Part shown: piece by piece, positions 1,537 through 19,753 of the stretch | How positions within the stretch are numbered: the stretch's first letter is position 1 | Layout: the number at the start of each line of letters is the position of its first letter | Virus record (IMG/VR): IMGVR_UViG_3300017739_000028 | Span: 1-39,672 of that record | DNA: 39,672 bases | Origin: a virus | Strand: one strand, 5' to 3' | The notes under the pieces: model-generated | The model's database searches: none | Told to the model about the DNA's origin: nothing | Seen by the model: only the letters and a program-made list of their open reading frames with translations | Program-made: the position numbers and the translations under genes

Positions 1537-2450
1537 TAGGAGCCACCTGTCACAAAGAGATCCCACGGTGAGGTGGGCGGAACGACGCTGGTTGACACAT
1601 CACCTGTAGCGATATACACGTTGTTGTTGTGTTTGACCAACGAGTGCTTGCTGTAAGAATTACTGGCGGAGTAGGAACCCTTCCAAGTAATCGCTTGCCC
1701 TGCTGGATCTGCTGGGGCTTGACCGGACACGGTGTACCCGCCGGCCTGTGAGGAGAAGCCACTGTATTGGTACTGCGGAAGCAAAGCCCCGTAGTCCATC
1801 TGCAACAGGCCATCCTGCTCGGCCACCCGCATGTAGAGCGGGCCTACGTCAATCTCTGCGAGCCTTTGGTTCAGACCCTCGTCTTCGTAGCCTTGAGCAA
1901 ATGCCCGGCAGTACGCCGTCAGAAGGGACTCGCACCACGTCGGGACATCGATGACCGACGTGTCCCCCGACGAGGTTGTGTACGTCGGGAAGGAGTAGAG
2001 ATAAGTAATTCGGATGAAGTCCGTGTCTGCGGATGTCACGGTTGGGTAGATTTGGAGTTGCCATTTGGGGGCACTTTGTCCATTCACCGATCCGGGGTAG
2101 TGGTAGACCGCAACGTAGTAAGCGTTGTTGCTGCCCACCGTTGACCGGCGGTAGAGGTTGAGACGATCAGGAGTTGTCAGATCGACTGTGTTGTTAAGTT
2201 CATCCGACATGCGGACTGAAATCAACGTATCAAAGTCATCTGGCAAATCAAGCACAGAAGCGTCAGCCGTAGCCTGCACCACAGCATCATGCTTCTCGCG
2301 GAACCGCCAACGGCGTGAGAATAGATAACGACCTGCGTCGTTGATGATGTCAATAATTCGCTGGTCTGCGGAAACCCCGTGCGTGCTGTCGAAGGAAGGG
2401 TCGCCACCAATAGCCAAGCGAACCTGTTCTTTGAGGTTCTTCAGTTGCAT
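1536..2450 (-). CDS. Head-tail adaptor-like tail protein with C-terminal carbohydrate-binding module
   Basis: 304 aa. The first 210 residues (MQLKNLKEQVRLAIGG..., then a region with DLPDDFDTLISVRM) look like tail-tubular-A/gp4-type adaptors of podoviruses, with an N-terminal helical part and a beta-rich part. The last 50 residues carry WKGSYSASNSYSKHSLVKH, then VYIATGDV and a final W, spaced like a chitin-binding CBM5/12 module (W.G.Y...Y..G..V...G..Y). A sugar-binding end on an adaptor-size protein is unusual and suggests a role at the cell surface. It sits between the decoration-like gene and the fibre gene, sharing one base with the latter. The adaptor call is by position and general shape; the CBM spacing is seen directly. 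Confidence 0.65.
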   Translation of the reverse strand: MQLKNLKEQVRLAIGGDPSFDSTHGVSADQRIIDIINDAGRYLFSRRWRFREKHDAVVQATADASVLDLPDDFDTLISVRMSDELNNTVDLTTPDRLNLYRRSTVGSNNAYYVAVYHYPGSVNGQSAPKWQLQIYPTVTSADTDFIRITYLYSFPTYTTSSGDTSVIDVPTWCESLLTAYCRAFAQGYEDEGLNQRLAEIDVGPLYMRVAEQDGLLQMDYGALLPQYQYSGFSSQAGGYTVSGQAPADPAGQAITWKGSYSASNSYSKHSLVKHNNNVYIATGDVSTSVVPPTSPWDLFVTGGS

Positions 2451-2463
2451 AAGAAATCAACGA

Positions 2464-2479
2464 GGGGGCTTTCGCCCCC
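2464..2479 (-). terminator. GAAA-capped hairpin after the decoration-like gene
   Basis: On the minus strand GGGGGC-GAAA-GCCCCC forms a perfect six-pair stem closed by a GNRA tetraloop, in the only real spacer (47 bp) between the decoration-like gene and the adaptor gene. Only short T runs follow, so it may be a weak terminator or an mRNA end-protecting element that keeps capsid mRNA levels above those of tail genes. Confidence 0.4.
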
Positions 2480-2497
2480 CCGGTGAGAGAGAGTAAA

Positions 2498-3001
2498 TCA
2501 GGCTCGGTTGATTGCGAACCCGTTGAAGAGGACAGGGAACAATGATCCGGCAGCCCCGGCATCGGTCTTGGCGACCATACTAAGGCCAACCAATGCGTTA
2601 TCCGCATCAGCACTAGAGGCAATCAAACAACCGACGTTGCTGATAAGGTCCATTGTTAGACCCATACCTTTGGTGACGTTGACTGTATCGCCGTCAAGAA
2701 CGGCATCTACAACCCCGGACAAGCAAACCTTGCCAAGATTACCAGAGGTGATGTCTTCAAGAAGAATCCCGTAGATTCCGGCAGAGTTGTTTGCTTCAGT
2801 TGCACTGATGTCAGCAAAATTTACAAAGCCAGAAGTGAGACCAGCATCGGTGTCGTTGTCGGTTGCCGCAGCGTTTGCAAAGTCGAGGACAACAACCTCA
2901 CCCTTGGTTACGGTGCCGGCGGTGCCGTTTTTCAAAGTAACAACGTACTGGTCGAATTGAACGCCCCGTGGTGGAGCAATAGGAGTAAGTTTAAAACTCA
3001 T
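2498..3001 (-). CDS. Putative head decoration (capsid cement-like) protein
   Basis: 167 aa, directly downstream of the major capsid gene, where decoration proteins usually lie. The sequence is Gly/Ala/Val/Asp-rich and beta-predicted, with GTVTKGEVVVLDF near residue 32, followed by segments reminiscent of DUF2190-like cement proteins (GIYGILLEDITSG...VCLSGVVDAV). There is no Cys cluster, signal peptide or membrane segment. AAGGA lies nine bases before the ATG. The product is probably abundant on the virion surface. The assignment rests mainly on position and composition, so another small structural role is possible. Confidence 0.55.
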   Translation of the reverse strand: MSFKLTPIAPPRGVQFDQYVVTLKNGTAGTVTKGEVVVLDFANAAATDNDTDAGLTSGFVNFADISATEANNSAGIYGILLEDITSGNLGKVCLSGVVDAVLDGDTVNVTKGMGLTMDLISNVGCLIASSADADNALVGLSMVAKTDAGAAGSLFPVLFNGFAINRA

Positions 3002-3013
3002 TTGTATGTTTCC

Positions 3014-4318
3014 TTACGCAATTGCGACTGGAGCCACGATACCTTGACGTTGGCGAGAACCACAGAAGAGGTTGTACCAAGTGTCGGTAGGCTGGACATA
3101 GGTGAATGGCTGATTCGGGTGACGCATCACTTCATGCTTGACCATGTAGCGGTTGGCGTGGAAGAAGCCGTGGAGGTAGTTAAAGTTAACAAAGTAGTAA
3201 CGGGCACCCTTGTTAACCGTGTCATCTGCTGTTTCAGCATCTGCACCATCGGGGGTTGCACCCTTCTGGCCGGCATTCGTGTCGGCCACGCTGGCTCCAA
3301 CATCTGCGTCGTAAATCTTGGCAGTGTCGAGTTCAGAGCAGTACATCAACTCAATACCGGAATAGGTAGGAGAGTTGTACTGAGGGTCTTGAGCCGAGAT
3401 CAAAGTGTCATTAGAAGCACGAAGCAATCGCTTGTACTGGTTAATACCTTCGCGTGAGCAAAGAATGATCTGTCGGTTCAGGTTGTTATCCTCAAAATAC
3501 TGTGCTTGGGTGCTTGGCGGGACGTATTGCAAACGCAAGAACATCTCATCAAACGCTCCGAACAAGTCGAAGATACTTGTGGAACCATCAGCCAACGCAG
3601 AAGCGTTGTAGTGACCCGAGAACCCTGCGGCCTTTGATTGGACACCTGAGTTAACTGCAGCACTCTTGTTGTAGAAGACAACCTCGTTGGTCCAACGCAA
3701 CTCAGTGGTTGGGTCAACGCCCATCACATTTCCGGTGTAACCAAGAGGCCGACCGCCACGGAAGCGACCAGTAACAGAAGTGGCATCAACGCACTTTTCT
3801 GTAATGAACGAAGGAATGGATGAAGGCAACTTGCCGTTGGCCCCTTCCATTTCAGTAGCGTTGCCGAAGGTTGGTCGGAACAAGTCAGTTTCCATACCGT
3901 TGAGCATGGAGGTCATCATTCGCTGTTCTTTGATTCGCTTCAGACGCTTGTAGACACCCTTTTGACCTTCGCCAGACAGACCTTCACCGAAGTTCAATTC
4001 GACTTCAGAGTCAGTGAATGACAGGTGGTCAATAGAGAACCGCCAGTGCTGGGTGATCGTGTCGGTCACTTGTGGGTTGGACCAAGAGAACACTTCGTTT
4101 GGCTGGTAGTGCTGGTAGGTGGAGTTTTCGTCGAACATGACGACATCACGAATCTCGGTGCCGCCTTGAATGGTTTTGTCATCTGCTTTGTCTTTGAGAA
4201 GACGAGAGAAGACGTAAGTGTTCTTCACTGCTTCATTCACGACATCCTGAGCCGAAGTCATATACGACGGCCCGGTTGAGTTCATGAAGTCAACGAAGGT
4301 TTGGACTGGCGAAGCCAT
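3014..4318 (-). CDS. Major capsid protein
   Basis: 434 aa, flanked by a scaffold-like gene upstream and a decoration-like gene downstream, the standard head-gene order. It has no signal peptide, and the composition is that of an HK97-fold shell protein with a helix-rich start, a long region including RLKRIKEQRMMTSMLNGME near residues 125-145, and a beta-rich end (YYFVNFNYLHGFFHANRYMV). The Glu/Arg-rich helix followed by a variable Gly/Asn-rich segment fits the spine-helix layout of capsid proteins of podoviruses with separate scaffolds. AAGGGA sits eight bases before the ATG. Confidence comes from size, neighbours and general similarity to phage major capsid proteins. Confidence 0.85.
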   Translation of the reverse strand: MASPVQTFVDFMNSTGPSYMTSAQDVVNEAVKNTYVFSRLLKDKADDKTIQGGTEIRDVVMFDENSTYQHYQPNEVFSWSNPQVTDTITQHWRFSIDHLSFTDSEVELNFGEGLSGEGQKGVYKRLKRIKEQRMMTSMLNGMETDLFRPTFGNATEMEGANGKLPSSIPSFITEKCVDATSVTGRFRGGRPLGYTGNVMGVDPTTELRWTNEVVFYNKSAAVNSGVQSKAAGFSGHYNASALADGSTSIFDLFGAFDEMFLRLQYVPPSTQAQYFEDNNLNRQIILCSREGINQYKRLLRASNDTLISAQDPQYNSPTYSGIELMYCSELDTAKIYDADVGASVADTNAGQKGATPDGADAETADDTVNKGARYYFVNFNYLHGFFHANRYMVKHEVMRHPNQPFTYVQPTDTWYNLFCGSRQRQGIVAPVAIA

Positions 4319-4335
4319 AAGTCAAATCCCTTTTT

Positions 4336-5214
4336 TTAGGAGTACATAGCCTTTGCCTCTTCAGGACTCTTGCCGCCCATGATTGCGTCGAGGATGGCAT
4401 CCTCCTTCTGTGCCGTAGACATTGCCTTTTTAGGCGTTGGCTTGGCGGCAGAAGTACGGATTGGTGACGGCTGTGCTTTGACTGGCTGCTGTACTTTGTC
4501 CTGTTTCATTTTGGACAAGTCAGGTTCACCATACAAATCGCAACACGCCACAAACATCATCTGTTCAACCGATTCAAAGCGGCCCGGATGCTGTTCGGCT
4601 AGGGCTTGCATTGAGTTAGTAATTTTGTCTCGCTCCAACTGTTTATCAGACCACACGGCCTGCATGTTGTTTTCAGCACGAGACAATTCCGATTGGATTG
4701 CCATGTTTTGAACCTGCGACATCTGGCTTTGCATTTGCTCGGCCATTTCACGCAGTGGCTTGGCAGCGTCTTCTCCGTACTTTGCTTCAACAGAAAGAAA
4801 GGGGTCTTCTGCGGAGTCATCTATAACAGACTCTTCCTTCGGTTCCTCTTTGCCTTCTTCCAAAGCCTTGAGCCTAGATCCAAATGAATCGACTTCCGCT
4901 TGCCTCTTGGCAGCATTGTCGGCCCACTCGGTAAGCCCTTGCACGTCAGATTCCTTCATCTCTGCGATAACTGAATCTGGAACGCCATCACGTTTCAAAA
5001 CACTAACGGCTTTCTCCACAGCCTCGCTGTCAACCACTGGGGCTGGCGGCTCCTCTGTAGAGACTTCCGCTGCAACCGGCTCGGTACTTACCAAACGGTC
5101 AAGAACAGCATCGTCCGACTCGGTCGGGTTCGATGTCTCTACCGCTTGAGAAGTAGCCTCCTCAGATACAGTGGACTCAGATACGGGTTCAACGGTTTTG
5201 TTGTCCATTTCCAT
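4336..5214 (-). CDS. Scaffold / capsid assembly protein
   Basis: 292 aa, strongly acidic N-terminal half (Glu/Val/Ser/Thr-rich, residues 1-120), then a helical coiled-coil-like middle (KPLREMAEQMQSQMSQVQNM, around residue 155) and a Lys-rich end (PTPKKAMSTAQKEDAIL). Acidic disordered start, coiled middle and basic C-terminal tail is the usual layout of phage scaffolds, whose basic end binds the capsid protein. It lies between portal and major capsid genes. The start could be either of two ATGs two codons apart (5214 or 5208). No protease gene is evident nearby, so the scaffold may leave the head intact, as in P22 (inference). Confidence 0.8.
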   Translation of the reverse strand: MEMDNKTVEPVSESTVSEEATSQAVETSNPTESDDAVLDRLVSTEPVAAEVSTEEPPAPVVDSEAVEKAVSVLKRDGVPDSVIAEMKESDVQGLTEWADNAAKRQAEVDSFGSRLKALEEGKEEPKEESVIDDSAEDPFLSVEAKYGEDAAKPLREMAEQMQSQMSQVQNMAIQSELSRAENNMQAVWSDKQLERDKITNSMQALAEQHPGRFESVEQMMFVACCDLYGEPDLSKMKQDKVQQPVKAQPSPIRTSAAKPTPKKAMSTAQKEDAILDAIMGGKSPEEAKAMYS

Positions 5215-5231
5215 GGACTACATCGTACCAT

Positions 5232-5528
5232 TTACTCTTTTGTGTAGCCGTGCCTAGACATGATCTCTTTCTCATGATTTTGAGATGTGATAATTGGCTT
5301 GCCTTGCTTGTTAAGGTCACAGCCGTCTAGATTTCTTGGCAGGGTCGAGGACGTGTACGGGTACTGGTGAACCTTGCGAGCGATGCCGGCTTCGTCCAAC
5401 TGGAACGACGCGACCCGCTGCATCTCGACACTGTTGCGAACAATCCAGTCGCCAATCTTTGGGGCTGTCCCCATCGGAAAGTCCAACTCGATTTCGGCAC
5501 CTTCTTTGGTCTTAAACAGGTAAATCAT
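5232..5528 (-). CDS. Conserved small protein next to portal
   Basis: 98 aa, function unknown. It overlaps the portal stop by four bases (ATGA), so it is translationally coupled to portal. The C-terminal part, with PRNLDGCDLNKQGKPII then HEKEIMSRHGY, resembles a family of short proteins often placed beside portal or scaffold genes in podoviruses (from memory). The N-terminal half (MIYLFKTKEGAEIELDFPMG) is beta-type and recalls FmdB-like zinc ribbons, but no CxxC pair is present, so zinc binding is unlikely. A head-assembly or accessory virion role is inferred only from location. Confidence 0.6.
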   Translation of the reverse strand: MIYLFKTKEGAEIELDFPMGTAPKIGDWIVRNSVEMQRVASFQLDEAGIARKVHQYPYTSSTLPRNLDGCDLNKQGKPIITSQNHEKEIMSRHGYTKE

Positions 5529-7306
5529 GCTCCGGTCCTAGCCACTACGCTTTTTAGGGCGGCTGCAATCTGCTGGTCATTGCCGGATTGCCCGCCCACT
5601 GGATTTTCGCTGGGACTGAGTTGTGATACGCCACCACCACCGCTGCCAGCAGGGCCAATCATACCTTGCTGCATGGCTGCGGCAGCCTTTTCAAGGTCAA
5701 TAATCGACCCGAGGCTTGGGATATTCATGGTTTGACCCAGCATTCCCATCACGGTGGGCCAATCCACCCACGGGGCTTGAGCAAACAATGGGGCGATATT
5801 GCCGATCAGTTGGACAACTTCAATGGCCCGTCGCTGAAGAACCACCTCAGAGGTGCGTTCCATTGAGTACGGGTCAATCGTCATCAAGAGATCGTCGTAA
5901 TCCCCGTCAACATCTCCACCAGTAAAGATGGGGTCAATCTCACCCAACTCCATCATGGCTTCTCGGCCAAGCGGCAAGACAATCGTGTTGTCGTGGAACA
6001 GGTACCAAAGCACTGTGTGCAATGAATCCTTCACACCTTCTGAGAATTGACGCTGTATGTGGGCCAGACGAACGGTCGCACCCGATTCTGCCACCGCAAC
6101 TGCTGTTGCTGTCGCATCACCGGAAAGGTTACCACGCTGGGCATCGTTGATGCCCGACTGTCTATCCAGTTTATCTGTTAGCAGGTTCTGGTATTGAACG
6201 TGCTGGGCAGTAATCCCACCCAACTCCATCGGCATAACACGTTGCGTATCCAAACCTTCGACTGGGATGACAAAGCGGTCTGGCATCTCTTTGATGTCAG
6301 TTGCCAACTTCTTGTTCTTTGCGTCTACCAGATAGATTCGCTTATAAGACTGCCCATTACTCACCAGTTGCCGAAGCGATCCGTTGATCTCTTGGGTCAG
6401 TTGGTTGGTGGCAGTCAGGGGACTGAGGGGGTACGGGTCGCCGGGAACAGTGTAAACACCGAGAAGGGTGTAAGGGCCAGTGCGTGGTCCGTAGTAGGGC
6501 TGGGGTTTTCGGATGTATCCGACATAGGGGTCATCCTCATCGGACGTGGGACCAGCAACAGCAAGCGTGTAGAGCATGCCGTGGTGCTTCCCATCACTTT
6601 CGGCATCGGACCCAGTATTTGGACACCAGATTTCGTAAATGGCGACCTCGTCACGGTACTTACTGCCTTCTCGATAACTGCTTTTCCCCTCGTAGTCATT
6701 CATGCCCGCGTTCTCAGCGAGATCCTGAATGGCCTCCATGTCGTAGGTGTCATCACCCTCGGCTGCATCAATCAACTCTTCACGCATCATGGAGTACGAG
6801 TGACCCATAAATCGTGATTCAGTCCAGTGACCAGCCTTGGGGTCCATAAAGAAATGCTCTGGAGCAATCCGATAGACCCGTGGCAGGCTCTTTATAGCCT
6901 CGTCTGCGGGCCGCTGACCCGGAACAGGTTCACTTACAGTCATCAAAACACCCCACCCGAACATCATGTCCATGGCGGAACGGTGCAATGTCTCTCTAAA
7001 CTGGGTATCGCTGATCCATCGATTCATTGCCAACTGGATCTTTGCCACAGTCTCGCCCTGCAAGGCTGGCCGGCGGCTGTCGATCTTGACGGCAGGGTTG
7101 TCATACACGATCTTTGGAAGGACCAAAGAGATGTATTCGTAAGCGTGGTTGTCCACATCGGGACGTACTTCGTGTTGGTAAGAGTGATCGTAATCCGTGC
7201 CCGCGTACCGCTTAATCATGTCCTTCATTGAGACCATGTGGCGGTTGCGGAAGTCGATTGCGTTCTCTACTTCCAGAAATAGATTGTCTGCACTCTTATC
7301 AATCAT
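5525..7306 (-). CDS. Portal (head-tail connector) protein
   Basis: 593 aa, the usual size for podovirus portals. Evidence includes the N-terminal helical region with YEYISLVLPKIVYDNPAV, the crown/wing region, and the signature stretch LDRQSGINDAQRGNLSGDA, followed by a long helix (ATVRLAHIQRQFSEGVKDSL) typical of portal stems. The extreme C-terminus is Gly/Pro/Gln-rich. The protein forms the ring through which DNA is packaged and ejected and would bind terminase and adaptor. The start ATG at 7306 overlaps the upstream DUF5681-type gene by eight bases, and the 3' end overlaps the next gene by four. No frame break or missing segment is visible. Confidence 0.85.
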   Translation of the reverse strand: MIDKSADNLFLEVENAIDFRNRHMVSMKDMIKRYAGTDYDHSYQHEVRPDVDNHAYEYISLVLPKIVYDNPAVKIDSRRPALQGETVAKIQLAMNRWISDTQFRETLHRSAMDMMFGWGVLMTVSEPVPGQRPADEAIKSLPRVYRIAPEHFFMDPKAGHWTESRFMGHSYSMMREELIDAAEGDDTYDMEAIQDLAENAGMNDYEGKSSYREGSKYRDEVAIYEIWCPNTGSDAESDGKHHGMLYTLAVAGPTSDEDDPYVGYIRKPQPYYGPRTGPYTLLGVYTVPGDPYPLSPLTATNQLTQEINGSLRQLVSNGQSYKRIYLVDAKNKKLATDIKEMPDRFVIPVEGLDTQRVMPMELGGITAQHVQYQNLLTDKLDRQSGINDAQRGNLSGDATATAVAVAESGATVRLAHIQRQFSEGVKDSLHTVLWYLFHDNTIVLPLGREAMMELGEIDPIFTGGDVDGDYDDLLMTIDPYSMERTSEVVLQRRAIEVVQLIGNIAPLFAQAPWVDWPTVMGMLGQTMNIPSLGSIIDLEKAAAAMQQGMIGPAGSGGGGVSQLSPSENPVGGQSGNDQQIAAALKSVVARTGA

Positions 7307-7658
7307 TAATCATCTGACGCTGCAAGTACGCTTCAAGGGCAATATCGACCTCTTGATCCGCCTGCCGCTGCTCCTCTTGGGCTACTTGCAGTTTGTGAAC
7401 CTGCTCCACTGGACCCTCGTCCCGTGCAACAAAGTCCTTGAGAATAGGCCACGCTTTAACTGGGTCTTCTTTAATAGCCTGATGTATCAAAGCCACCATT
7501 TCGTCGGCACGAGTCACACCATCCGCTACTTCTTCAGACAGAACTGACCGTAAACGGGACATGAGGCCGACAGCCCCTTTGGATCTACCAGAGGGGTTGC
7601 CGCTCACGCCGGGGACAAACCGTCCCTGTTGATCTCTTGAGGGCTTTACGTCAGACAT
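7299..7658 (-). CDS. DUF5681-type protein, possible small terminase
   Basis: 119 aa. The start carries the recognisable DUF5681 signature GRFVPGVSGNPSGRSKG (residues 12-28), followed by helices (LMSRLRSVLSEEVADGV) and a Gln/Glu-rich coiled end. Such proteins occur in phage packaging clusters and have been proposed as small terminase or DNA-binding factors. Here it lies immediately upstream of portal, about 5 kb downstream of the large terminase gene, so a packaging role is plausible but not shown. It overlaps portal by eight bases. Other small-terminase candidates are the two genes just after terL (12684-12860 and 12296-12709). Confidence 0.65.
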   Translation of the reverse strand: MSDVKPSRDQQGRFVPGVSGNPSGRSKGAVGLMSRLRSVLSEEVADGVTRADEMVALIHQAIKEDPVKAWPILKDFVARDEGPVEQVHKLQVAQEEQRQADQEVDIALEAYLQRQMIND

Positions 7659-7664
7659 TGGTTT

Positions 7665-7790
7665 TCAATAACCGCCCATGCGACGGCGAACCGTCTTCTT
7701 TTTCTTCATTGCTGGCTTGGCCTTGCGTGCTTTGCCGGCTGCGGGTTTGCCCATTTTGCCTGTCATTTTTTTTCTGTTGGAATGTTGCAT
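7665..7790 (-). CDS. Tiny Lys/Arg-rich protein, 41 aa
   Basis: Translated by hand: starts MQHSNRKKMTGKMGKP, continues with alternating Lys/Ala, and ends KKKKTVRRRMGGY. About 40% of residues are Lys or Arg, with no acidic residue. Function unknown. It follows the pattern of the tiny basic proteins at 8550-9836 and ends six bases before the ATG of the DUF5681-type gene. Basic, Met/Gly-rich miniproteins like this are frequent in aquatic phage virion regions and could neutralise packaged DNA. The start is an ATG with no strong ribosome-binding site; an internal Met at codon 9 is an alternative. Confidence 0.55.
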   Translation of the reverse strand: MQHSNRKKMTGKMGKPAAGKARKAKPAMKKKKTVRRRMGGY

Positions 7791-7839
7791 TGTGTGCCCC
7801 TTTCGCCCCTACATCGGGCTGGCTAGTTATGCTATTACG

Positions 7840-8151
7840 ATGACCACAGATAAATATACCGCGACCACCAATGATGGCGTACGCACTCGATCAGGCAAAG
7901 CCTCAGTCTGCGTCAGAATTGATATTGAAGACTACAGACGCTTGCGAACGCTTGCTGAAAAGAACAACCCCATACTGCCACCAGCGACAGTATCGGCAGT
8001 TGCCTCAAGAATCCTTAGCCTCGCCATCAAGGACTTTGGGGCAATCGGAGCAGACTCCAATTTTGCCCAAAATCAGGCTTCTGAGGAAGGCGAGGACTGT
8101 TCGTCCGATCCACGCACCAGCGAGGAAAGAACAGAGGATGACGAGTGTTGA
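7840..8151 (+). CDS. Putative ribbon-helix-helix-type regulator, opposite to the late genes
   Basis: 103 aa, on the plus strand inside the minus-strand late block, filling a stretch (7791-8072) with no minus-strand gene. Residues 20-65 read ASVCVRIDIEDYRRLRTLAEK then a loop and SAVASRILSLAIKDFG: one beta strand plus two helices, the Arc/MetJ-like arrangement. The rest is a polar, Glu/Ser-rich tail ending EERTEDDEC. No Shine-Dalgarno sequence precedes the ATG at 7840. A TATGCT at 7828-7833 would place the transcript start on the ATG itself (leaderless), and a TTGCAT/TACATC pair with 19-bp spacing (7785-7815) is a second weak promoter option. The last 79 bases overlap the end of the lipoprotein gene. 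It may control the early/late switch (inference). Confidence 0.6.
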   Translation: MTTDKYTATTNDGVRTRSGKASVCVRIDIEDYRRLRTLAEKNNPILPPATVSAVASRILSLAIKDFGAIGADSNFAQNQASEEGEDCSSDPRTSEERTEDDEC

Positions 8152-8549
8152 CGCAATCGCGTCAGAGAACGGTAACGAAGACATTTCTTGAACTCCTGAA
8201 GGTCTAGACCCAGTATCAACAGGGCCACTAATACTGTACCCACGATCAACCAGATCGTGTAGGTGTTGCTGAGTGTATGTGCGAGCAGAGTATTCAACAG
8301 AACTAGCCCTGCTCCGGTCAAAAGAGGTATCCAACCCTTGCTGCCCTGCGATATGAACAGCAGAAGTGCCCCCGAGAGCATGCACAGTGCCCCCGCCCAC
8401 CGAAACGGACTGAGACTGTCCAGTATTAGGGCGTTCTGAGGGTTCGGCGGTGTAGCCGCCGGCAGATCGAAAGGGAGTTTGAAGCCCCCTTGGGTTTGAC
8501 ATCCGCTTACAAGCAGTAATATCGTGATGTAGGCACGCTGAAGGGACAT
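8073..8549 (-). CDS. Predicted lipoprotein with three transmembrane segments
   Basis: 158 aa. It begins MSLQRAYITILLLVSGCQTQ: a short basic start, a hydrophobic run and a lipobox LVSGC with Cys17, so signal peptidase II processing is expected. Three hydrophobic segments follow at about residues 50-70 (WAGALCMLSGALLLFI), 73-93 (WIPLLTGAGLVLLNTLLA) and 96-118 (IWLIVGTVLVALLILGL), then a basic/Ser-rich cytoplasmic tail. ATG follows directly on the upstream TAA. The position among small virion-associated genes and the topology suggest a lysis accessory (holin- or spanin-like) or a superinfection-exclusion membrane protein; neither is demonstrated. A longer ORF in another frame over the same bases is judged a shadow. 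Confidence 0.65.
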   Translation of the reverse strand: MSLQRAYITILLLVSGCQTQGGFKLPFDLPAATPPNPQNALILDSLSPFRWAGALCMLSGALLLFISQGSKGWIPLLTGAGLVLLNTLLAHTLSNTYTIWLIVGTVLVALLILGLDLQEFKKCLRYRSLTRLRQHSSSSVLSSLVRGSDEQSSPSSEA

Positions 8550-14875: not shown

Positions 14876-14904
14876 TTGCAAGACTGGTGAACACTTGGCA
14901 TAGT
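14876..14904 (+). promoter_or_regulatory. Candidate early promoter
   Basis: TTGCAA and CATAGT separated by 17 bp, each four of six to the sigma-70 consensus, directed to the early block. The -35 shares TTGCA with the two promoter candidates inside the early block (16376 and 19583), which raises its credibility. Confidence 0.4.
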
Positions 14905-15113
14905 TCACTCATCGCAGTTGAGCGACGCCTTCTTTGACATCCGAATACTTCGCTGACCTCAGTGGTCCCCTCCACTGGTGCCATCCAGATCCGAGCAGAA
15001 CAGCCGGTTGGAGAGTCAGCAAGAACACCACCACTCAAATTCAGGTGGTGACCGGGACACCGGTCGCCATCTCTTCTGACAACGCTGCACATCGCAGCAG
15101 TCTACTTCATTCC

Positions 15114-15132
15114 AACTCACAGGAATCTCACC
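15114..15132 (+). promoter_or_regulatory. Start-associated leader motif, copy 1
   Basis: AACTCACAGGAATCTCACC directly before the ATG of the first early gene. AGGA is the ribosome-binding core; the flanking bases recur at the other copies. Confidence 0.7.
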
Positions 15133-15471
15133 ATGAACCAATTCGCCAAAGACGAAGCCGCAGCAATCAAAGCCATCACCATGCTGATCAAGCACGAAGC
15201 AGAACACGACTTCGCGGGGCACCTTGACTGCGAGAAGATCAACATCAACAAGTGCAAAAGCACAGTGGGCGACGGTTGGGACGGCACTCTCCTGATCACC
15301 AACATCTCAATGGAAAGGCAATGGATCGGCATCGACCGCGTTGACATCTTGGACATCGAGGATGGCGGCAAACTCGAAACGCAATTCAACAACGTGGCTT
15401 TCGCCTTCAAATGCCAAGCACGACTGCTTGAAGTCTGCGGTCATCTGGCTGTCAAAATCAGCCACGCCTGA
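15133..15471 (+). CDS. Early hypothetical protein, 112 aa
   Basis: First gene of the early block: MNQFAKDEAAAIKAITMLIK at the start, then HEAEHDFAGH. The HEAEH at residues 21-25 fits HExxH by pattern, but the surroundings do not look like a peptidase, so this is likely chance. The middle (WDGTLLITNISMERQWIGID) is beta-type; the end is helical with two Cys. The preceding leader motif and the first position suggest strong early expression, as for host-takeover proteins (inference). No family recognised. Confidence 0.7.
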   Translation: MNQFAKDEAAAIKAITMLIKHEAEHDFAGHLDCEKININKCKSTVGDGWDGTLLITNISMERQWIGIDRVDILDIEDGGKLETQFNNVAFAFKCQARLLEVCGHLAVKISHA

Positions 15472-15492
15472 ACCCTCCCATCACAGCCTTCC

Positions 15493-15518
15493 ATCGGGTG
15501 CCCTGCGGGGCATCCATT
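15493..15518. repeat. 26-bp direct repeat with UGCG hairpin, copy A
   Basis: Identical to 15955-15980. It contains a hairpin (15497-15515) whose CCC/GGG stem closes on TGCG, a UNCG tetraloop in RNA, extended by G-C, T-A and two more G-C pairs past one bulged T. It lies just after the stop of the 112-aa gene; no T run follows. Confidence 0.85.
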
Positions 15519-15548
15519 GGTCTGCTCTGACCCACTAACTAGTCACAC

Positions 15549-15566
15549 TACTCACGGAGAAAACTC
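15549..15566 (+). promoter_or_regulatory. Start-associated leader motif, copy 2
   Basis: TACTCACGGAGAAAACTC before ATG 15567; a diverged copy keeping ACTCAC and GGAG. Confidence 0.6.
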
Positions 15567-15941
15567 ATGACTGACCAATTCGCGTACAACGCAATCAACG
15601 TTGAAGCACAACTCAAATACCGCCGCATCAATTCCAACACCGTCTTCAAAAGTGTGGAGGACTTCAAGGAGTCTCGCTGCACGGAGGTTATGGAGATCAT
15701 TAGGACCGTCAAGTCGCTCTGGGATTGCGAACTAGTTGTCAATGACCATGGCGACTACGGCCTTTCGATCATCCTTGGCGGCGTTGGCTGGAAAGACCGT
15801 GGGGTCAAGACCCTCATGAACCGGCTCGGCACCATCAACAATCGGTGGGAACGCTGGGATCGGAAGCATGGGCAGTCTCACCTTCGATGCTGCACGGCTG
15901 GCGAAGAAGGCAGCGTCTGCATCGACCTCGCTTGGATGTGA
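15567..15941 (+). CDS. Early hypothetical protein, 124 aa
   Basis: MTDQFAYNAINVEAQLKYRR at the start, a helical stretch (SRCTEVMEIIRTVKSLW) and a beta/turn region (HGDYGLSIILGGVGW), ending with two adjacent Cys and acidic residues. No known motif, signal peptide or membrane helix. It is flanked by the two identical 26-bp hairpin repeats, so it sits in a self-contained cassette of hairpin, leader and gene. Unknown function; a small host-modifying protein is one possibility. Confidence 0.7.
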   Translation: MTDQFAYNAINVEAQLKYRRINSNTVFKSVEDFKESRCTEVMEIIRTVKSLWDCELVVNDHGDYGLSIILGGVGWKDRGVKTLMNRLGTINNRWERWDRKHGQSHLRCCTAGEEGSVCIDLAWM

Positions 15942-15954
15942 ACCACAGTCCTCA

Positions 15955-15980
15955 ATCGGGTGCCCTGCGGGGCATCCATT
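15955..15980. repeat. 26-bp direct repeat with UGCG hairpin, copy B
   Basis: Second exact copy of 15493-15518; hairpin at 15959-15977. The two copies flank the 124-aa gene, 462 bp apart. Confidence 0.85.
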
Positions 15981-16008
15981 TGCCGACTCTGGCTTATCAA
16001 CTCACCTC

Positions 16009-16028
16009 AACTCACAGGAGATTCCACT
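16009..16028 (+). promoter_or_regulatory. Start-associated leader motif, copy 3
   Basis: AACTCACAGGAGATTCCACT ends right before ATG 16029. It is nearly identical to the copy before the 220-aa gene (17554-17573). Confidence 0.75.
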
Positions 16029-16331
16029 ATGTCTGATTACACCTTTTACTCTGACCCCGGACACGCTTGGCTTGCCGTCCCGCTCCAAGAATTTATTGAT
16101 TCAGGTGCTGAAGTATCCTCGTTCTCTCATGTCTGCACCAAGCGGGACATGGCCTTCCTCGAAGAAGACATTGACGCTTATCGCTTCATGAAAGCCAAAG
16201 GCTTGATCGGTGAGGATGGTGCAATGCACCTTGGGGCCGAGATCAAAGAATCTCACTCCAACTCACCCAGTTGGATTCGCCGCTTGCCAAGCATCGGCAC
16301 CGTCACCGAAACCGTCTCGCTGCGACACTGA
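16029..16331 (+). CDS. Early hypothetical protein, 100 aa
   Basis: MSDYTFYSDPGHAWLAVPLQ, then EFIDSGAEVSSFSHVCTKRD and EEDIDAYRFMKAKGL. The order (short beta start, GHAWLAVP, a segment with polar turns, then a helix with acidic residues) recalls a family of small phage/plasmid proteins with a GHxWL.V motif, from memory only. The ATG at 16029 is fixed by the leader motif; earlier in-frame ATGs lie inside the hairpin repeat. Function unknown. Confidence 0.7.
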   Translation: MSDYTFYSDPGHAWLAVPLQEFIDSGAEVSSFSHVCTKRDMAFLEEDIDAYRFMKAKGLIGEDGAMHLGAEIKESHSNSPSWIRRLPSIGTVTETVSLRH

Positions 16332-16347
16332 TCCACTGCACCCCATC

Positions 16348-16369
16348 ACCCCCAAATTATTCTGGGGGT
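16348..16369 (+). terminator. Intergenic hairpin before the DUF932 gene
   Basis: ACCCCCA and TGGGGGT pair (7 bp) around an eight-base loop, 17 bases after the stop of the 100-aa gene. The bases after it (ATTGG) are not a U tract, so a weak terminator or RNA-processing element is more likely than a full stop. A promoter candidate follows at once. Confidence 0.45.
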
Positions 16370-16375
16370 ATTGGC

Positions 16376-16403
16376 TTGCACTGCTAGTCAGACTTGCTAC
16401 ATT
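16376..16403 (+). promoter_or_regulatory. Candidate internal early promoter
   Basis: TTGCAC, 16 bp, TACATT, with TGC directly before TACATT (extended -10). The 11-mer CTTGCTACATT recurs at 19601-19611 in the same role. It lies about 50 bases upstream of the DUF932 gene. Confidence 0.5.
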
Positions 16404-16435
16404 ACTCACTTATCAACTGGGCCACGTTGGCCCCC

Positions 16436-16454
16436 AACCTTTAGGAACCTCACC
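16436..16454 (+). promoter_or_regulatory. Start-associated leader motif, copy 4
   Basis: AACCTTTAGGAACCTCACC before ATG 16455. The weakest match in its first half, but AGGAaCCTCACC agrees with copy 1. Confidence 0.5.
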
Positions 16455-17477
16455 ATGTCTCACGAAATCACCTCTACTGATAACGCCGTCTTCGCCAAAA
16501 CTGCTGCATGGCACGGCCTTGGCACTGTCCTTCCCGAACACACCACCGCACAGGATGCATTCAAGCGTGTGATGGATTGGGATGTCGAATCACAAACTCT
16601 GCTCCGCAAGACTGCCGAAGGCAAGATCGTCGAGTGCGATCACAACGCCGTCGTTCGCAAAGACAACGACGCAGTGCTGGGCTATGTCAGCCCCTCCTAC
16701 AAGACGTTCAACAACCGCGAGTTTGCTGGGTTTGTCGAGCAGGCATGTGGCAAGACCAAGTTTGTTGAGTCAGCCCTGACCATGCGTGGTGGCAAACTCG
16801 TCGCCATGCTGGTGGATCTCGGTCGCACCGAGATCGAGGCACGCGGCACCACTGATGCACTGCACCAGTACGGCATGTTCTCCACCTCCCACGACGGCTC
16901 CCAAGGCTTGCGTCTGTGTGCCACCAACGTCCGGGTCGTTTGCAAGAACACCTTCGACGCTGCCAACGCTTCGGGTAGGCAAGCCAGCCTGCGTCACACC
17001 GCCACCATCGACCAGCGTGCTGCTGCCGATGCGGCTGACTTCTTCGCCGGCACCATGGAAGCCCACAACGTCTTCGCCGTGAAGGCTGAGGCACTTGCCA
17101 ACGTCGAGTTGTCACAGGGCGATTTGGAGTTGTTCCTCACCAACCTCTACAACCGTCAGATCGGCAAGGTCATCATCGACCCCAAGACCAAAGGCGAAAA
17201 GAAGTCTGCGTCGATGGCGATGGACACCATCAGCCAGTGGATGTCGCTCGCTCAGGGCCGCACTGCCAATGGCATGGAGCGTTCCGCATGGGCCGCGTTC
17301 AACGCTGTGACCGAGTGGGCTGACCACCACCGCACCGTACGCGGCGAGTCTGAGGACTCCACCAACCGCACCTTCTCCCGCCTGCTGGGCACCGGCAATG
17401 ACCTGAAGGGCAAGGTCTGGAACACCACCTGCTCGTCCTTCCTGCCCAAGAAGAAGGAGGCCGTCCTCGTCGGCTGA
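16455..17477 (+). CDS. DUF932 family protein
   Basis: 340 aa from ATG 16455. The start has AAWHGLGTVLPEHTTAQDAF and later VLGYVSPSYKTFNNREF, GLRLCATNVRVVCKNTF and LRHTATIDQRAA, which together are the pattern of DUF932 (phage/plasmid-like protein) members, whose length is usually about 300-350 aa. The molecular role is not established; these proteins occur on phages and plasmids near replication and recombination functions. The block is noticeably more GC-rich than its neighbours. It is preceded by hairpin, promoter candidate and leader motif, and followed by a UACG hairpin, so it may be a separate transcription unit. Confidence 0.85.
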   Translation: MSHEITSTDNAVFAKTAAWHGLGTVLPEHTTAQDAFKRVMDWDVESQTLLRKTAEGKIVECDHNAVVRKDNDAVLGYVSPSYKTFNNREFAGFVEQACGKTKFVESALTMRGGKLVAMLVDLGRTEIEARGTTDALHQYGMFSTSHDGSQGLRLCATNVRVVCKNTFDAANASGRQASLRHTATIDQRAAADAADFFAGTMEAHNVFAVKAEALANVELSQGDLELFLTNLYNRQIGKVIIDPKTKGEKKSASMAMDTISQWMSLAQGRTANGMERSAWAAFNAVTEWADHHRTVRGESEDSTNRTFSRLLGTGNDLKGKVWNTTCSSFLPKKKEAVLVG

Positions 17478-17500
17478 CCCCCGCACGACTTCCCACCTGT

Positions 17501-17516
17501 CCCCTCTACGGAGGGG
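17501..17516 (+). terminator. UACG-capped hairpin after the DUF932 gene
   Basis: CCCCTC-TACG-GAGGGG, perfect six-pair stem with C(UACG)G, a very stable UNCG tetraloop in RNA, 23 bases after the stop. No T run follows, so it may protect or process the transcript rather than terminate it. Confidence 0.45.
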
Positions 17517-17553
17517 GCGGACTGGGCAGCCCTGCTGCTTATCTACTCACCCT

Positions 17554-17573
17554 AACTCACAGGAGATTCAACC
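17554..17573 (+). promoter_or_regulatory. Start-associated leader motif, copy 5
   Basis: AACTCACAGGAGATTCAACC before ATG 17574. This is the copy closest to the consensus of the set. Confidence 0.8.
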
Positions 17574-18236
17574 ATGGAACCCGATTACACCAAGTGGACA
17601 CTGATCCACAGCACCCAACGACTTCTCAACCCATCCGAGAACGAAGTGCATTGCCACTCGGAAATCACAGACATGCAACAGTCGCTGCTCGAACTGGGGA
17701 AACGTAAGCGTCAAATCCAGATTGACCGCATGGCACTGCACCGCAAAGAGGAAGCCGACATCGACAGGCAATCCCAAGCCATCGACAAGAAGATGCGGGC
17801 CAAGTGGAACAAGGCACGCCTTTCAAAATTCTATGGCGGCCAAACTGTGATCGCTCGCCAGCGAGGGCTTGCGGCAAGAGGTGTCCCCGACTGCCCAATG
17901 CACGAAGGCTTTGTAGCCAATGTCGAGGGCGTGCGTGAAGGCGTGGAGGGCAAAGTCCTCAAGACGGTGTGTGGCCCACGCAACCAAGGCGTGTGGGTGC
18001 AATTCCCAGAAGAGTCCGGCATGGCTTGCCGACCTGCTGACTGCTTCTTCTATTGCCTTGAAAACATCGAGTGCAACCAAGCCCTCGAACCTGCCTTTGG
18101 CGGCTGGACAGGCCACCGCTTGGCAACTCTCAGCGACATTCGGTTGCTCGCCCATGAGATCGTGAAGAAGCCAGCCAGTTGGTTTGGTGCAGTCCTCAAA
18201 GGTGAATGTCATATCGAAGACTTCATGAAATCCTGA
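17574..18236 (+). CDS. Early hypothetical protein, 220 aa
   Basis: Residues 30-85 form a long charged helix, probably coiled coil (QQSLLELGKRKRQIQIDRMA, then RKEEADIDRQSQAIDKKMRA). The second half holds several Cys and turns (CPMHEGFVANVEGV, MACRPADCFFYCLENIEC), which might make a small metal-binding domain. There is no signal peptide. It lies between two hairpins in its own cassette. No family recognised. The two-part layout suggests an oligomeric protein with a C-terminal binding domain (inference). Confidence 0.7.
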   Translation: MEPDYTKWTLIHSTQRLLNPSENEVHCHSEITDMQQSLLELGKRKRQIQIDRMALHRKEEADIDRQSQAIDKKMRAKWNKARLSKFYGGQTVIARQRGLAARGVPDCPMHEGFVANVEGVREGVEGKVLKTVCGPRNQGVWVQFPEESGMACRPADCFFYCLENIECNQALEPAFGGWTGHRLATLSDIRLLAHEIVKKPASWFGAVLKGECHIEDFMKS

Positions 18237-18253
18237 TCCACAGTCAGACACCA

Positions 18254-18271
18254 GCCCCCCTGCGGGGGGGC
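18254..18271 (+). terminator. UGCG-capped hairpin after the 220-aa gene
   Basis: GCCCCCC-TGCG-GGGGGGC, a perfect seven-pair GC stem with a UNCG loop, 17 bases past the stop. It is the strongest stem of the series, again without a T run. Confidence 0.5.
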
Positions 18272-18303
18272 GACTGACCGACTCTGGTCTATCTACTCAC
18301 CCC

Positions 18304-18323
18304 AACTCACAAGGGAATCTCAA
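18304..18323 (+). promoter_or_regulatory. Start-associated leader motif, copy 6
   Basis: AACTCACAAGGGAATCTCAA before ATG 18324; AAGGGA is the ribosome-binding core. Confidence 0.7.
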
Positions 18324-18806
18324 ATGACCAAGCCAAAATTCACGGGCGACCAGCCCAGCGTCGAACTCACCAAACGGTTCGGGCACAAGCGTGTCCGGGT
18401 GTACCGGAACCTGAACAACGGGATGCTGTCAGTCAAGGATCACAGTCCAGACAGCCCCACCTACGGGAAGGTCATCGCCTACAGCAACAAGGTGCTTATC
18501 AGATCGGCTGACTTCAAAGTCAGCAAGGCTGGTCACAACCGCGTGTTGAAAGAAGGCCGTAAGAATGTTCACGCCTACATTGAAGGCATCCTGTCCGACA
18601 TCGACCCCCACAGCCTGCGTGGCCCGACTGCTCATGTGTCGTACCGCACCGAGAAGGCTTGGGGTCCACACTTCAGAGAGGTTAGCCTCACCACCCCGCA
18701 GTCACCATTTGGCAGAAAAGCGATGTACTCAGTATGGGCCTACTTAACAACTGGTGCCCAGACAGTCATCGAACCAATGTGGCGAAAACAAACCACCCAC
18801 TCATAA
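18324..18806 (+). CDS. Conserved phage hypothetical protein, 160 aa
   Basis: HKRVRVYRNLNNGMLSVKDH near the start, then GKVIAYSNKVLI, SADFKVSKAGHNRVLKEGRK and NVHAYIEGIL. The combination VRVYRNL....SV....GKV......F.V...G...V..EGRKNVHAY..G is one I recognise from many phage hypothetical proteins, with no assigned function. It is basic and soluble. The segment after residue 110 is less typical and contains VSYRTEKAWGPHFREV. Co-transcribed with the 100-aa gene 12 bases downstream, without a hairpin in between. Confidence 0.75.
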   Translation: MTKPKFTGDQPSVELTKRFGHKRVRVYRNLNNGMLSVKDHSPDSPTYGKVIAYSNKVLIRSADFKVSKAGHNRVLKEGRKNVHAYIEGILSDIDPHSLRGPTAHVSYRTEKAWGPHFREVSLTTPQSPFGRKAMYSVWAYLTTGAQTVIEPMWRKQTTHS

Positions 18807-18818
18807 GGAACTATCATC

Positions 18819-19121
18819 ATGTCCGATTCAAACTGGCCCAAATGCGTATCGCTGGGCAAGCCCTACATCAAAGTCATCCTCCGGTTCTGGACACCCGAAA
18901 GTGGCATCCGTGAACAGGAAACTTTTATCCATCCAAGGCAGCCGCAAAAGTCCAAGGCCGTGATGGATCAAGCCGAGAATGACTTCTCCGTTCACTGCTT
19001 CGCCTTCAACTGCGAGGCCGCACTGATGACCGAAACAATCGATGGGCACATCAAAGTCATCGCCCACCACACCGACTTCGATTGGGACAGCCAAGTGCTG
19101 CCCGAAGACGCAATCGAGTGA
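18819..19121 (+). CDS. Early hypothetical protein, 100 aa
   Basis: MSDSNWPKCVSLGKPYIKVI, then LRFWTPESGIREQETFIHP and an acidic end HTDFDWDSQVLPEDAIE. The ATG has AAGGA nine bases upstream, one of the few early starts without the full leader motif, so it probably depends on the gene before it (12-bp gap). Mixed alpha/beta, five Cys/His-rich positions (HCFAFNCEAA), no family recognised. Confidence 0.65.
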   Translation: MSDSNWPKCVSLGKPYIKVILRFWTPESGIREQETFIHPRQPQKSKAVMDQAENDFSVHCFAFNCEAALMTETIDGHIKVIAHHTDFDWDSQVLPEDAIE

Positions 19122-19139
19122 CGCTCACCCCTACCCCAA

Positions 19140-19156
19140 ACGGCATTCTCAGCCGT
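19140..19156 (+). terminator. Small intergenic hairpin before the lysozyme-like gene
   Basis: ACGGC-7-GCCGT, five pairs, between the acidic 100-aa gene and the lysozyme-like gene. Weaker than the others in the series and without a T run. Confidence 0.3.
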
Positions 19157-19158
19157 AC

Positions 19159-19176
19159 TTTCACAAGGAATCTCAC
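19159..19176 (+). promoter_or_regulatory. Start-associated leader motif, copy 7
   Basis: TTTCACAAGGAATCTCAC before ATG 19177; it agrees with copies 1 and 6 over the core. Confidence 0.65.
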
Positions 19177-19599
19177 ATGCTTACCACACTTCTTCTATCG
19201 TTCGGACTTGCTGCCGATTTCAAATTGACTGACTTGGAATGTGCCATCTGGCAGGTTGAGTCAGGCAAGAAACTCACGGGCGACAAACCAATCCTTGGTG
19301 ACTGGTGCCCACGTCGCAAGAAGTTTATGTCACGAGGCCCGCTTCAAATATCTGAGGATTATCACACAGACTCAGGTGTCAAGTTTCCATACCACATGGT
19401 TGATGACTTGGAGCATGCAGTGCTGACCATGCGTGGCTTCATGAAGCGTTACGCCCGCGAAGATCGCAAGCCTGCCGGCATGTCTTGGAACGAGATGAAA
19501 GCCCGCATGCACAACGGTGGCCCGCGTGGTCACTGGCGTATCGAAGCAACTCAGCAACATTGGGAAAAAACCCAAAAGGCTCTTGCAGACTGTAACTAG
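19177..19599 (+). CDS. Secreted lysozyme-like endolysin (i-type/transglycosylase fold)
   Basis: 140 aa. A short hydrophobic start (MLTTLLLSFGLAAD) looks like a signal peptide or anchor. IWQVESGKK places a likely catalytic Glu at 28; RGPLQISEDYH (53-63), an MKRYARED helix (89-96) and MHNGGPRG (111-118) follow. This set (E..SG, GPLQI, K.Y, HNGGP.G, then a W helix) matches the recalled pattern of invertebrate-type/destabilase lysozymes and related bacterial transglycosylase-like enzymes. It would cleave cell-wall glycan. Unusually for a lysis enzyme, it lies in the early block rather than beside late genes, so it may act in lysis through Sec export or in another wall-remodelling step. The start is fixed by the leader motif. 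Confidence 0.75.
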   Translation: MLTTLLLSFGLAADFKLTDLECAIWQVESGKKLTGDKPILGDWCPRRKKFMSRGPLQISEDYHTDSGVKFPYHMVDDLEHAVLTMRGFMKRYAREDRKPAGMSWNEMKARMHNGGPRGHWRIEATQQHWEKTQKALADCN

Positions 19600-19611
19600 C
19601 CTTGCTACATT
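19583..19611 (+). promoter_or_regulatory. Candidate internal early promoter
   Basis: TTGCAG, 17 bp, TACATT with TGC in front. The -35 lies in the last codons of the lysozyme-like gene, the -10 just after its stop. It shares CTTGCTACATT and the CTAG a few bases upstream with the candidate at 16376-16403. Confidence 0.5.
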
Positions 19612-19696
19612 TCAAATCCACCCCAACGCTTGGCGGCGGCACTCCCCGCTGCCGTCAGGCTTTGCCCAACAGGGCGACAACTCAACAACTTTCGCA

Positions 19697-19731
19697 CCCC
19701 TCGCCAGTCTGGACGTTCCTGCTGGCGGGGG
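19697..19731 (+). terminator. Extended intergenic hairpin before the 162-aa gene
   Basis: CGCCAG (19702-19707) pairs with CTGGCG (19722-19727), extended by C-G pairs past a bulged T. It occurs in a 154-bp gap that also holds the promoter candidate and leader motif; a GC-rich stretch around 19632-19655 can form another stem. No T run. Confidence 0.4.
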
Positions 19732-19735
19732 GCTT

Positions 19736-19753
19736 TCACTCACGGAGAATCAA
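19736..19753 (+). promoter_or_regulatory. Start-associated leader motif, copy 8
   Basis: TCACTCACGGAGAATCAA before ATG 19754; it shares ACTCACGGAGAA with copy 2. Confidence 0.6.

Follow-up and report, generated by a model that had tools for sequence, protein, structure and literature searches.

Why do the bases directly ahead of the early genes of an uncultivated phage resemble one another so far beyond the ribosome site itself? The window analysed here, the full 39,672 nt of record IMGVR_UViG_3300017739_000028, was scanned on both strands for the leader that these genes have in common. The + strand genes are called early and the - strand genes late, the timing being deduced from recognised products, since the recognised + strand genes are non-structural and the - strand carries terminase, portal and capsid. 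The leader proved to be the 3′ part of a cassette of about 90 nt, and in five cassettes an RNA hairpin of about 50 nt, here called the rod, lies ahead of it. The rod is a covarying RNA structure, and the case shows that start-associated bases picked out by eye can belong to a larger structured element of which they are only the exposed end. The cassette is known from two uncultivated phages, and all structure and conservation results were computed from sequence. The second genome, L003 (the locus of IMGVR_UViG_3300006919_000391, likewise uncultivated), was the sole close relative in the IMG/VR scans; the other IMG/VR matches, L004, L006 and L007, are distant, and the rod was not found in any of them.

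The leader ahead of early starts

A gapped pattern (CTCAY, 0-2 nt, GGR, 6-10 nt, ATG) matched seven times, always at + strand early starts (15133, 15567, 16029, 17574, 18324, 18819 and 19754), against a mean of 1.12 matches in dinucleotide shuffles, none of 100 of which reached seven. The repeated leader reported before early ATGs in a preliminary description of this DNA is thus real; its count of eight genes is obtained with the looser form TCA[CT]A(0-2)GG, which adds the start at 19177 (TTTCACAAGGA), while the strict pattern gives seven. The ninth early gene, at 16455, has a leader of its own, CTTTAGGA, without CTCAC. In the looser form the leader stands at 8 of 9 early starts and at 1 of 26 late starts (34069 only; Fisher P = 3e-6), and it was not found at the + strand starts outside the cassette block (20242, 20460, 20905, 22399, 23262 and 23983). 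The correct ATG positions are 16029 and 19754, both easily misread by one. The sharing of up to 20 bases, also described earlier, applies to two or three copies only and not to the others; the exact 20-mer occurs once, plus one copy at 2 mismatches. Because the spacing from CTCAC to GG varies from 0 to 2 nt between copies, a matrix built from nine copies aligned without gaps gave some of them poor ranks, and the gapped pattern was used instead.

The AGGA/GGAG core lies 11-13 nt upstream of the ATG, and the common bases reach about 10-12 nt beyond it on the 5′ side, where they have no complement in 16S rRNA. Pairing with the canonical 16S tail, which may not be that of the host, extends over only 4-5 nt; therefore the upstream CTCAC is not anti-Shine-Dalgarno pairing. 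Early leaders are poorer in G than late ones and more open (mean unpaired probability 0.63 vs 0.45, P = 6e-5). The core is also that of ordinary Shine-Dalgarno sites, to which the leader adds common bases upstream, and chance or ordinary Shine-Dalgarno similarity could in principle account for the likeness. The core itself is indeed ordinary, but for the extended motif this explanation is refuted and as a whole it is hardly credible, given the shuffles, the single late start and the conservation in L003 well beyond the AGGA core at 15133, 15567, 16029, 17574, 18324 and 19754. It had been argued beforehand that relatives keeping only the core would speak against a functional element; this is the case at 19177, and not at those six places. 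A dedicated early signal, translational or transcript-processing, had been suggested on first inspection, and it fits, because the leader is limited to early starts (bar 34069), G-poor, unpaired and conserved beyond the core; that suggestion covered only the 3′ end of the cassette.

T7 and T3 promoters have cores of the form CTCACTA..AGGGAGA. Despite this resemblance, a T7-like phage promoter was rejected, since the spacing varies by 0-2 nt, no T7-type RNA polymerase gene was found in the window by a hidden Markov model (HMM) search that finds T7's own, and the G run of the leader occupies the position necessary for the ribosome site. The T4 RegB site was also rejected, GGAGRAYARAA not being enriched.

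The sole late start with the leader (34069-34090, - strand, ACTCACAGGATTGGATCTTTAATG) lies ahead of a giant protein of 3244 aa with LPD38, DUF7178 and DarB-like matches. An exact 20-nt copy of CACCTCAACTCACAGGAGAT is present in an unrelated sewage phage (L020 6001-6020; MW091528.1 11793-11812), 4 nt ahead of a start codon; it is single, has no rod and scores E 0.8, and it may be fortuitous or have converged on the same open leader.

A covarying rod joined to the leader

The leaders and rods of the early block are listed below, with the evidence for each.

15115..15132 (+): leader ACTCACAGGAATCTCACC of gene 15133-15471; pattern scan; identical in L003
15481..15530 (+): rod copy 1, C(UGCG)G loop, 9 nt past the stop of gene 15133; folding, covariation, model
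15531..15566 (+): linker and leader ending in ACTACTCACGGAGAAAACTC, gene 15567; 94/95 intergenic bases kept in L003
15943..15992 (+): rod copy 2, C(UGCG)G loop, 1 nt past the stop of gene 15567; folding, covariation, model
15993..16028 (+): linker TTATCAACTCACC and leader TCAACTCACAGGAGATTCCACT, gene 16029; repeats, L003 comparison, pattern scan
16333..16384 (+): rod copy 3, 8-nt loop, ahead of gene 16455; recovered by model R2, which was built without it
16432..16454 (+): leader CCCCAACCTTTAGGAACCTCACC of gene 16455, degenerate, without CTCAC; L003 comparison
17483..17535 (+): rod copy 4, C(UACG)G loop, ahead of gene 17574; likewise recovered by R2, which was built without it
17536..17573 (+): linker CTTATCTACTCACC and leader CTAACTCACAGGAGATTCAACC, gene 17574; repeats, L003 comparison, pattern scan
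18238..18287 (+): rod copy 5, C(UGCG)G loop, 1 nt past the stop of gene 17574; folding, covariation, model
18288..18323 (+): linker CTATCTACTCACC and leader CCAACTCACAAGGGAATCTCAA, gene 18324; repeats, L003 comparison, pattern scan
18798..18818 (+): leader CACTCATAAGGAACTATCATC of gene 18819, without rod; pattern scan; leader missing from L003
19159..19176 (+): leader TTTCACAAGGAATCTCAC of gene 19177, without rod; L003 keeps only the GAGAGGAA core
19697-19732 (+): a different 12-bp hairpin ahead of the 19754 leader; folding
19736..19753 (+): leader TCACTCACGGAGAATCAA of gene 19754; pattern scan, L003 comparison

The rods begin 1-9 nt past the upstream stop codon, and each is followed by a G-poor and mostly unpaired leader of about 35-80 nt that ends in the ribosome site. 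The rod has 23 rungs and, in most copies, a UNCG loop. From the base upwards it comprises 3 pairs, a C.C mismatch, 3-4 pairs and a 2x2 or 3x3 loop, followed in the upper part by 3 pairs of the CCA/TGG type, a 2x2 loop (Y.Y and C.A), 7-10 pairs and the terminal loop. The mismatches C.C, Y.Y and C.A are at fixed positions, and the CAC/CTG and CCA/TGG bases are invariant.

Covariation was measured on an alignment of ten rows, seven of them distinct, with 12 alignable pairs. Standard pairs fill 89% of the cells of these pairs, two-sided changes occur in 7 of the 12, and the covariation score is 0.556, compared with 0.155 +/- 0.049 in shuffled alignments (0/500 as high); when the partner is slid by 1-3 columns the score falls to 0.12 or less. 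RNAalifold independently recovers the same structure. A model built from the three most similar copies (R2) finds the other two with E values of about 4e-4 and 5e-4, and the full covariance model finds the five copies and nothing else convincing, all between early genes and on the coding strand. Since R2 also scores the reverse strand of its first three copies, as near-palindromes do, the strand was assigned from the UNCG loops, a G-U pair and the gene direction rather than from the model score. An R2 near-match at 3256-3300 (E 0.015), opposite a late gene, was taken as chance. No Rfam family reached its gathering score in the window, and nothing convincing appeared there at a lax threshold.

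The copies are not independent, because the two best leader copies belong to longer duplicated stretches, namely an 86-nt repeat family (15477, 15939 and 18234) and a 40-nt family (15992, 17537 and 18287), both running into the start region.

Two further strong hairpins in the gaps, both on the + strand, are not rods: 15020-15100 before gene 15133 (z -6.3) and 19623-19748 before gene 19754 (z -3.4).

Conservation in the relative and exchange of the genes between cassettes

Between the window and L003, identity is 95-99% across the five rod-bearing gaps and about 79-81% at the fourfold-degenerate sites of the shared early genes. Counted as substitutions, there are 4/255 in the rods (98.4% identity), 7/214 in linker plus leader (96.7%) and about 75/403 at fourfold sites, the first two rates lying below the third with P = 5e-13 and 8e-9, respectively; of the parts compared, the rod has changed least.

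These figures bear on the possibility that the leader alone is functional, as an ordinary strong and unstructured ribosome site, and that the rods are by-products of duplication and of homogenisation by recombination. Three rods do lie within the 86-nt duplicated stretch, and the phage encodes exonuclease VIII-like (22399) and Erf-like (23262) recombination proteins. This explanation is nevertheless quite improbable, as the helices covary between diverged copies while the mismatches stay fixed, the rod is the part best conserved in L003, and homogenisation predicts like copies within one genome, whereas each cassette copy finds its best L003 match in its positional counterpart.

In three slots the genes between conserved cassettes differ in the two genomes. 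The slot at 15567 encodes 124 aa here and two unrelated genes of 105 and 137 aa in L003; that at 16029 encodes 100 aa here and an unrelated 61 aa in L003; that at 18324 encodes 160 aa here and an unrelated 160 aa in L003. Nucleotide similarity ends at the ATG in all three (15569, 16031 and 18326). It returns towards the 3′ end of the coding stretch in the first two, at 15931 and 16327, and in the third at 19108, close to where gene 18819 ends. In L003 the start corresponding to 18819 overlaps the preceding gene and has no such leader.

A diverged homologue of the 18819 protein is present in L003 too. In the window, the proteins of 15133-15471 and 18819-19121 (+ strand) have about 35 C-terminal residues in common (34% identity, E about 0.01) and are perhaps paralogues.

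Transcription signals and the role of the cassette

The following predicted signals bear on how the early genes are transcribed.

14876..14904 (+): promoter-like TTGCAA-17-CATAGT, TG before the -10, gene 15133; TTGCAA-17-CATATT in L003
16376..16403 (+): promoter-like TTGCAC-16-TACATT, TG before the -10, sharing bases with the 3′ end of rod copy 3; identical in L003
19583..19611 (+): promoter-like TTGCAG-17-TACATT, TG before the -10, gene 19754; weaker in L003
21586..21616 (+): canonical terminator with a U-tract, closing the early block; terminator scan

The promoter-like class, TTGCA(A/C/G)-16/17-(T/C)AnnnT with TG before the -10, occurs ahead of 15133, 16455 and 19754 only. By a textbook sigma-70 matrix, which may not suit the host, 2-9% of random stretches of equal length score as high as these three sites, compared with 54-86% for the best scores in the remaining gaps. 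The class is not enriched genome-wide (6 observed, 4.9 expected), and the three sites are suggestive as putative promoters. Only one of the five rod cassettes (16455) has such a site, so that a sigma-70 promoter in every cassette was rejected for the other four. No U-tract follows any rod, and the terminator scan does not list the rods. With few promoter-like sites and rods without U-tracts, most cassettes therefore look post-transcriptional.

These observations can be set against the T4-type promoter-early stem-loops (PeSLs; cited in PMC4503421), which are, like our cassette, composite early intergenic stem-loops with genes swapped between conserved cassettes. In that reading the rod would be the terminator of the upstream gene and the TATCWACTCACC that follows it a promoter, each gene forming a separate transcription unit. 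A stem-loop followed by a leader in every gap would suit it, as would the promoter-like site right after the rod at 16455, identical in L003, the TATCWACT common to several linkers, and gene exchange at conserved joints, as reported for T4, which we found in three slots between cassettes 95-99% identical, in one genome pair. However, PeSLs have an early promoter per cassette and a rho-independent terminator, whereas here one cassette in five has a promoter-like site, the other four gaps score like random genome stretches, 54-84% of which reach their best promoter score, and none of the five rods has a U-tract. The identities of the internal loops are also kept, although termination does not need them, and the stepped structured rod and the conserved ribosome leader set our cassettes apart from PeSLs. 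We consider the PeSL-like arrangement rather unlikely.

The same fixed features could instead point to a site, made of rod and CTCAC leader, for a phage or host RNA-binding factor (a repressor, an activator or put/nut-like antitermination) that switches the early genes together. The fixed C.C, Y.Y and C.A mismatches and the invariant CAC/CTG and CCA/TGG bases do resemble specific recognition, and five copies lie in a single region. Against it, none of the nine leader-bearing genes could be recognised as encoding a candidate RNA-binding protein, and antitermination sites usually adjoin a promoter, while the stretch from the 14876 site to gene 15133 contains no rod. Such a factor site is, in our judgement, unlikely.

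We favour, at about even confidence, a cassette acting post-transcriptionally as an intercistronic boundary element joined to an unstructured translation leader. The early genes would be transcribed polycistronically by host RNA polymerase from the 14876, 16376 and 19583 sites. The rod would mark the cistron boundary, where a host RNase III-type double-strand RNase would cut it, as at the T7 early sites, and/or a rod stub would block 3′-5′ decay of the upstream message. Every downstream gene would receive the same open leader and be translated efficiently, independently of its neighbour. Because every gene sits between standard boundary pieces, these may double as short homologies for gene exchange, perhaps aided by the exonuclease VIII-like and Erf-like proteins. 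That RNase III in particular acts at the rod is a more tentative proposal, made by analogy with T7. Equally tentative is the view that this is a new phage RNA element, in which a mismatch-patterned rod fused to a fixed leader serves as a standard connector, the early genes being exchangeable and the internal loops being read by a specific nuclease or RNA-binding protein. If true, the cassette would be a clear case of one standard RNA connector serving many phage early genes, its rod structure supported by covariation inside a single genome, and it would link the division of the early message, the translation of early genes and the swapping of accessory genes without loss of expression.

The T7 early polycistronic mRNA is processed by RNase III at five intercistronic sites (PMC4858673). 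These sites (R0.3, R0.5, R1, R1.1 and R1.3) are, like the rods, hairpins of about two turns between early cistrons and just 5′ of the ribosome site; site R1 has a C(UGCG)G loop, as in rods; and the T7 block, with host-type promoters and one closing terminator, can be likened to the early block here, whose promoters are predicted. The rods, in contrast to the long upper stem of the T7 sites, have a stepped stem with several fixed mismatches, and T7 has the T7-type RNA polymerase gene that the HMM search did not find here.

Several points weigh against the boundary element. The unbroken upper stem is longer in the T7 sites (9-13 bp); the rods showed no sequence relationship to the T7 R sites (our model R1 applied to T7 400-8000); and RNase III might cut the rods less well because of their internal mismatches. 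The leader occurs without this rod at 18819, 19177, 15133 and 19754, so that rod and leader are separable. The resemblance of the copies alone proves little, because the five partly descend from one another, and co-transcription across the gaps and rod cleavage are both things that we infer. Lastly, the cassette is seen in the two genomes only. A search of genome contigs gave a 29%-identity terminase match in one Planctomycetia metagenome-assembled genome, but the rod was not found in 199 genomes of its phylum, and these searches named no host.

The start-associated sequences (SAS) of cluster K mycobacteriophages resemble the leader in being near-identical stretches, including AGGAG, directly ahead of many non-structural starts, in genes with larger upstream gaps, and the restriction to such starts is also found here (8/9 early, 1/26 late). 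That cluster K offers an analogue of different sequence, as proposed before this analysis, is borne out: the 13-nt SAS GGGATAGGAGCCC had no match in the window within two mismatches. In a subset of SAS genes a second element of about 50 nt, the extended SAS (ESAS), lies farther upstream; its inverted repeats reportedly do not form RNA pairs (PMC3203893), and ESAS contain SigA-like promoters (PMC11373665). The rods, in contrast, covary as RNA, and four of the five cassettes lack a promoter-like site. The layout has something of T7 RNase III sites, of T4 PeSLs and of cluster K SAS/ESAS, and departs from each on a defining point; the finding prompts a re-examination of the unexplained SAS/ESAS.

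Two observations concern other parts of the two genomes. In L003, the space that separates the divergent terminase and first early genes (7997-8447) is longer by about 140 bases. In the window, an Mtd_N (major tropism determinant) domain in the 481-aa protein encoded on the - strand at 124-1566 hints at a receptor-binding protein, of a type that retroelements diversify in other systems.

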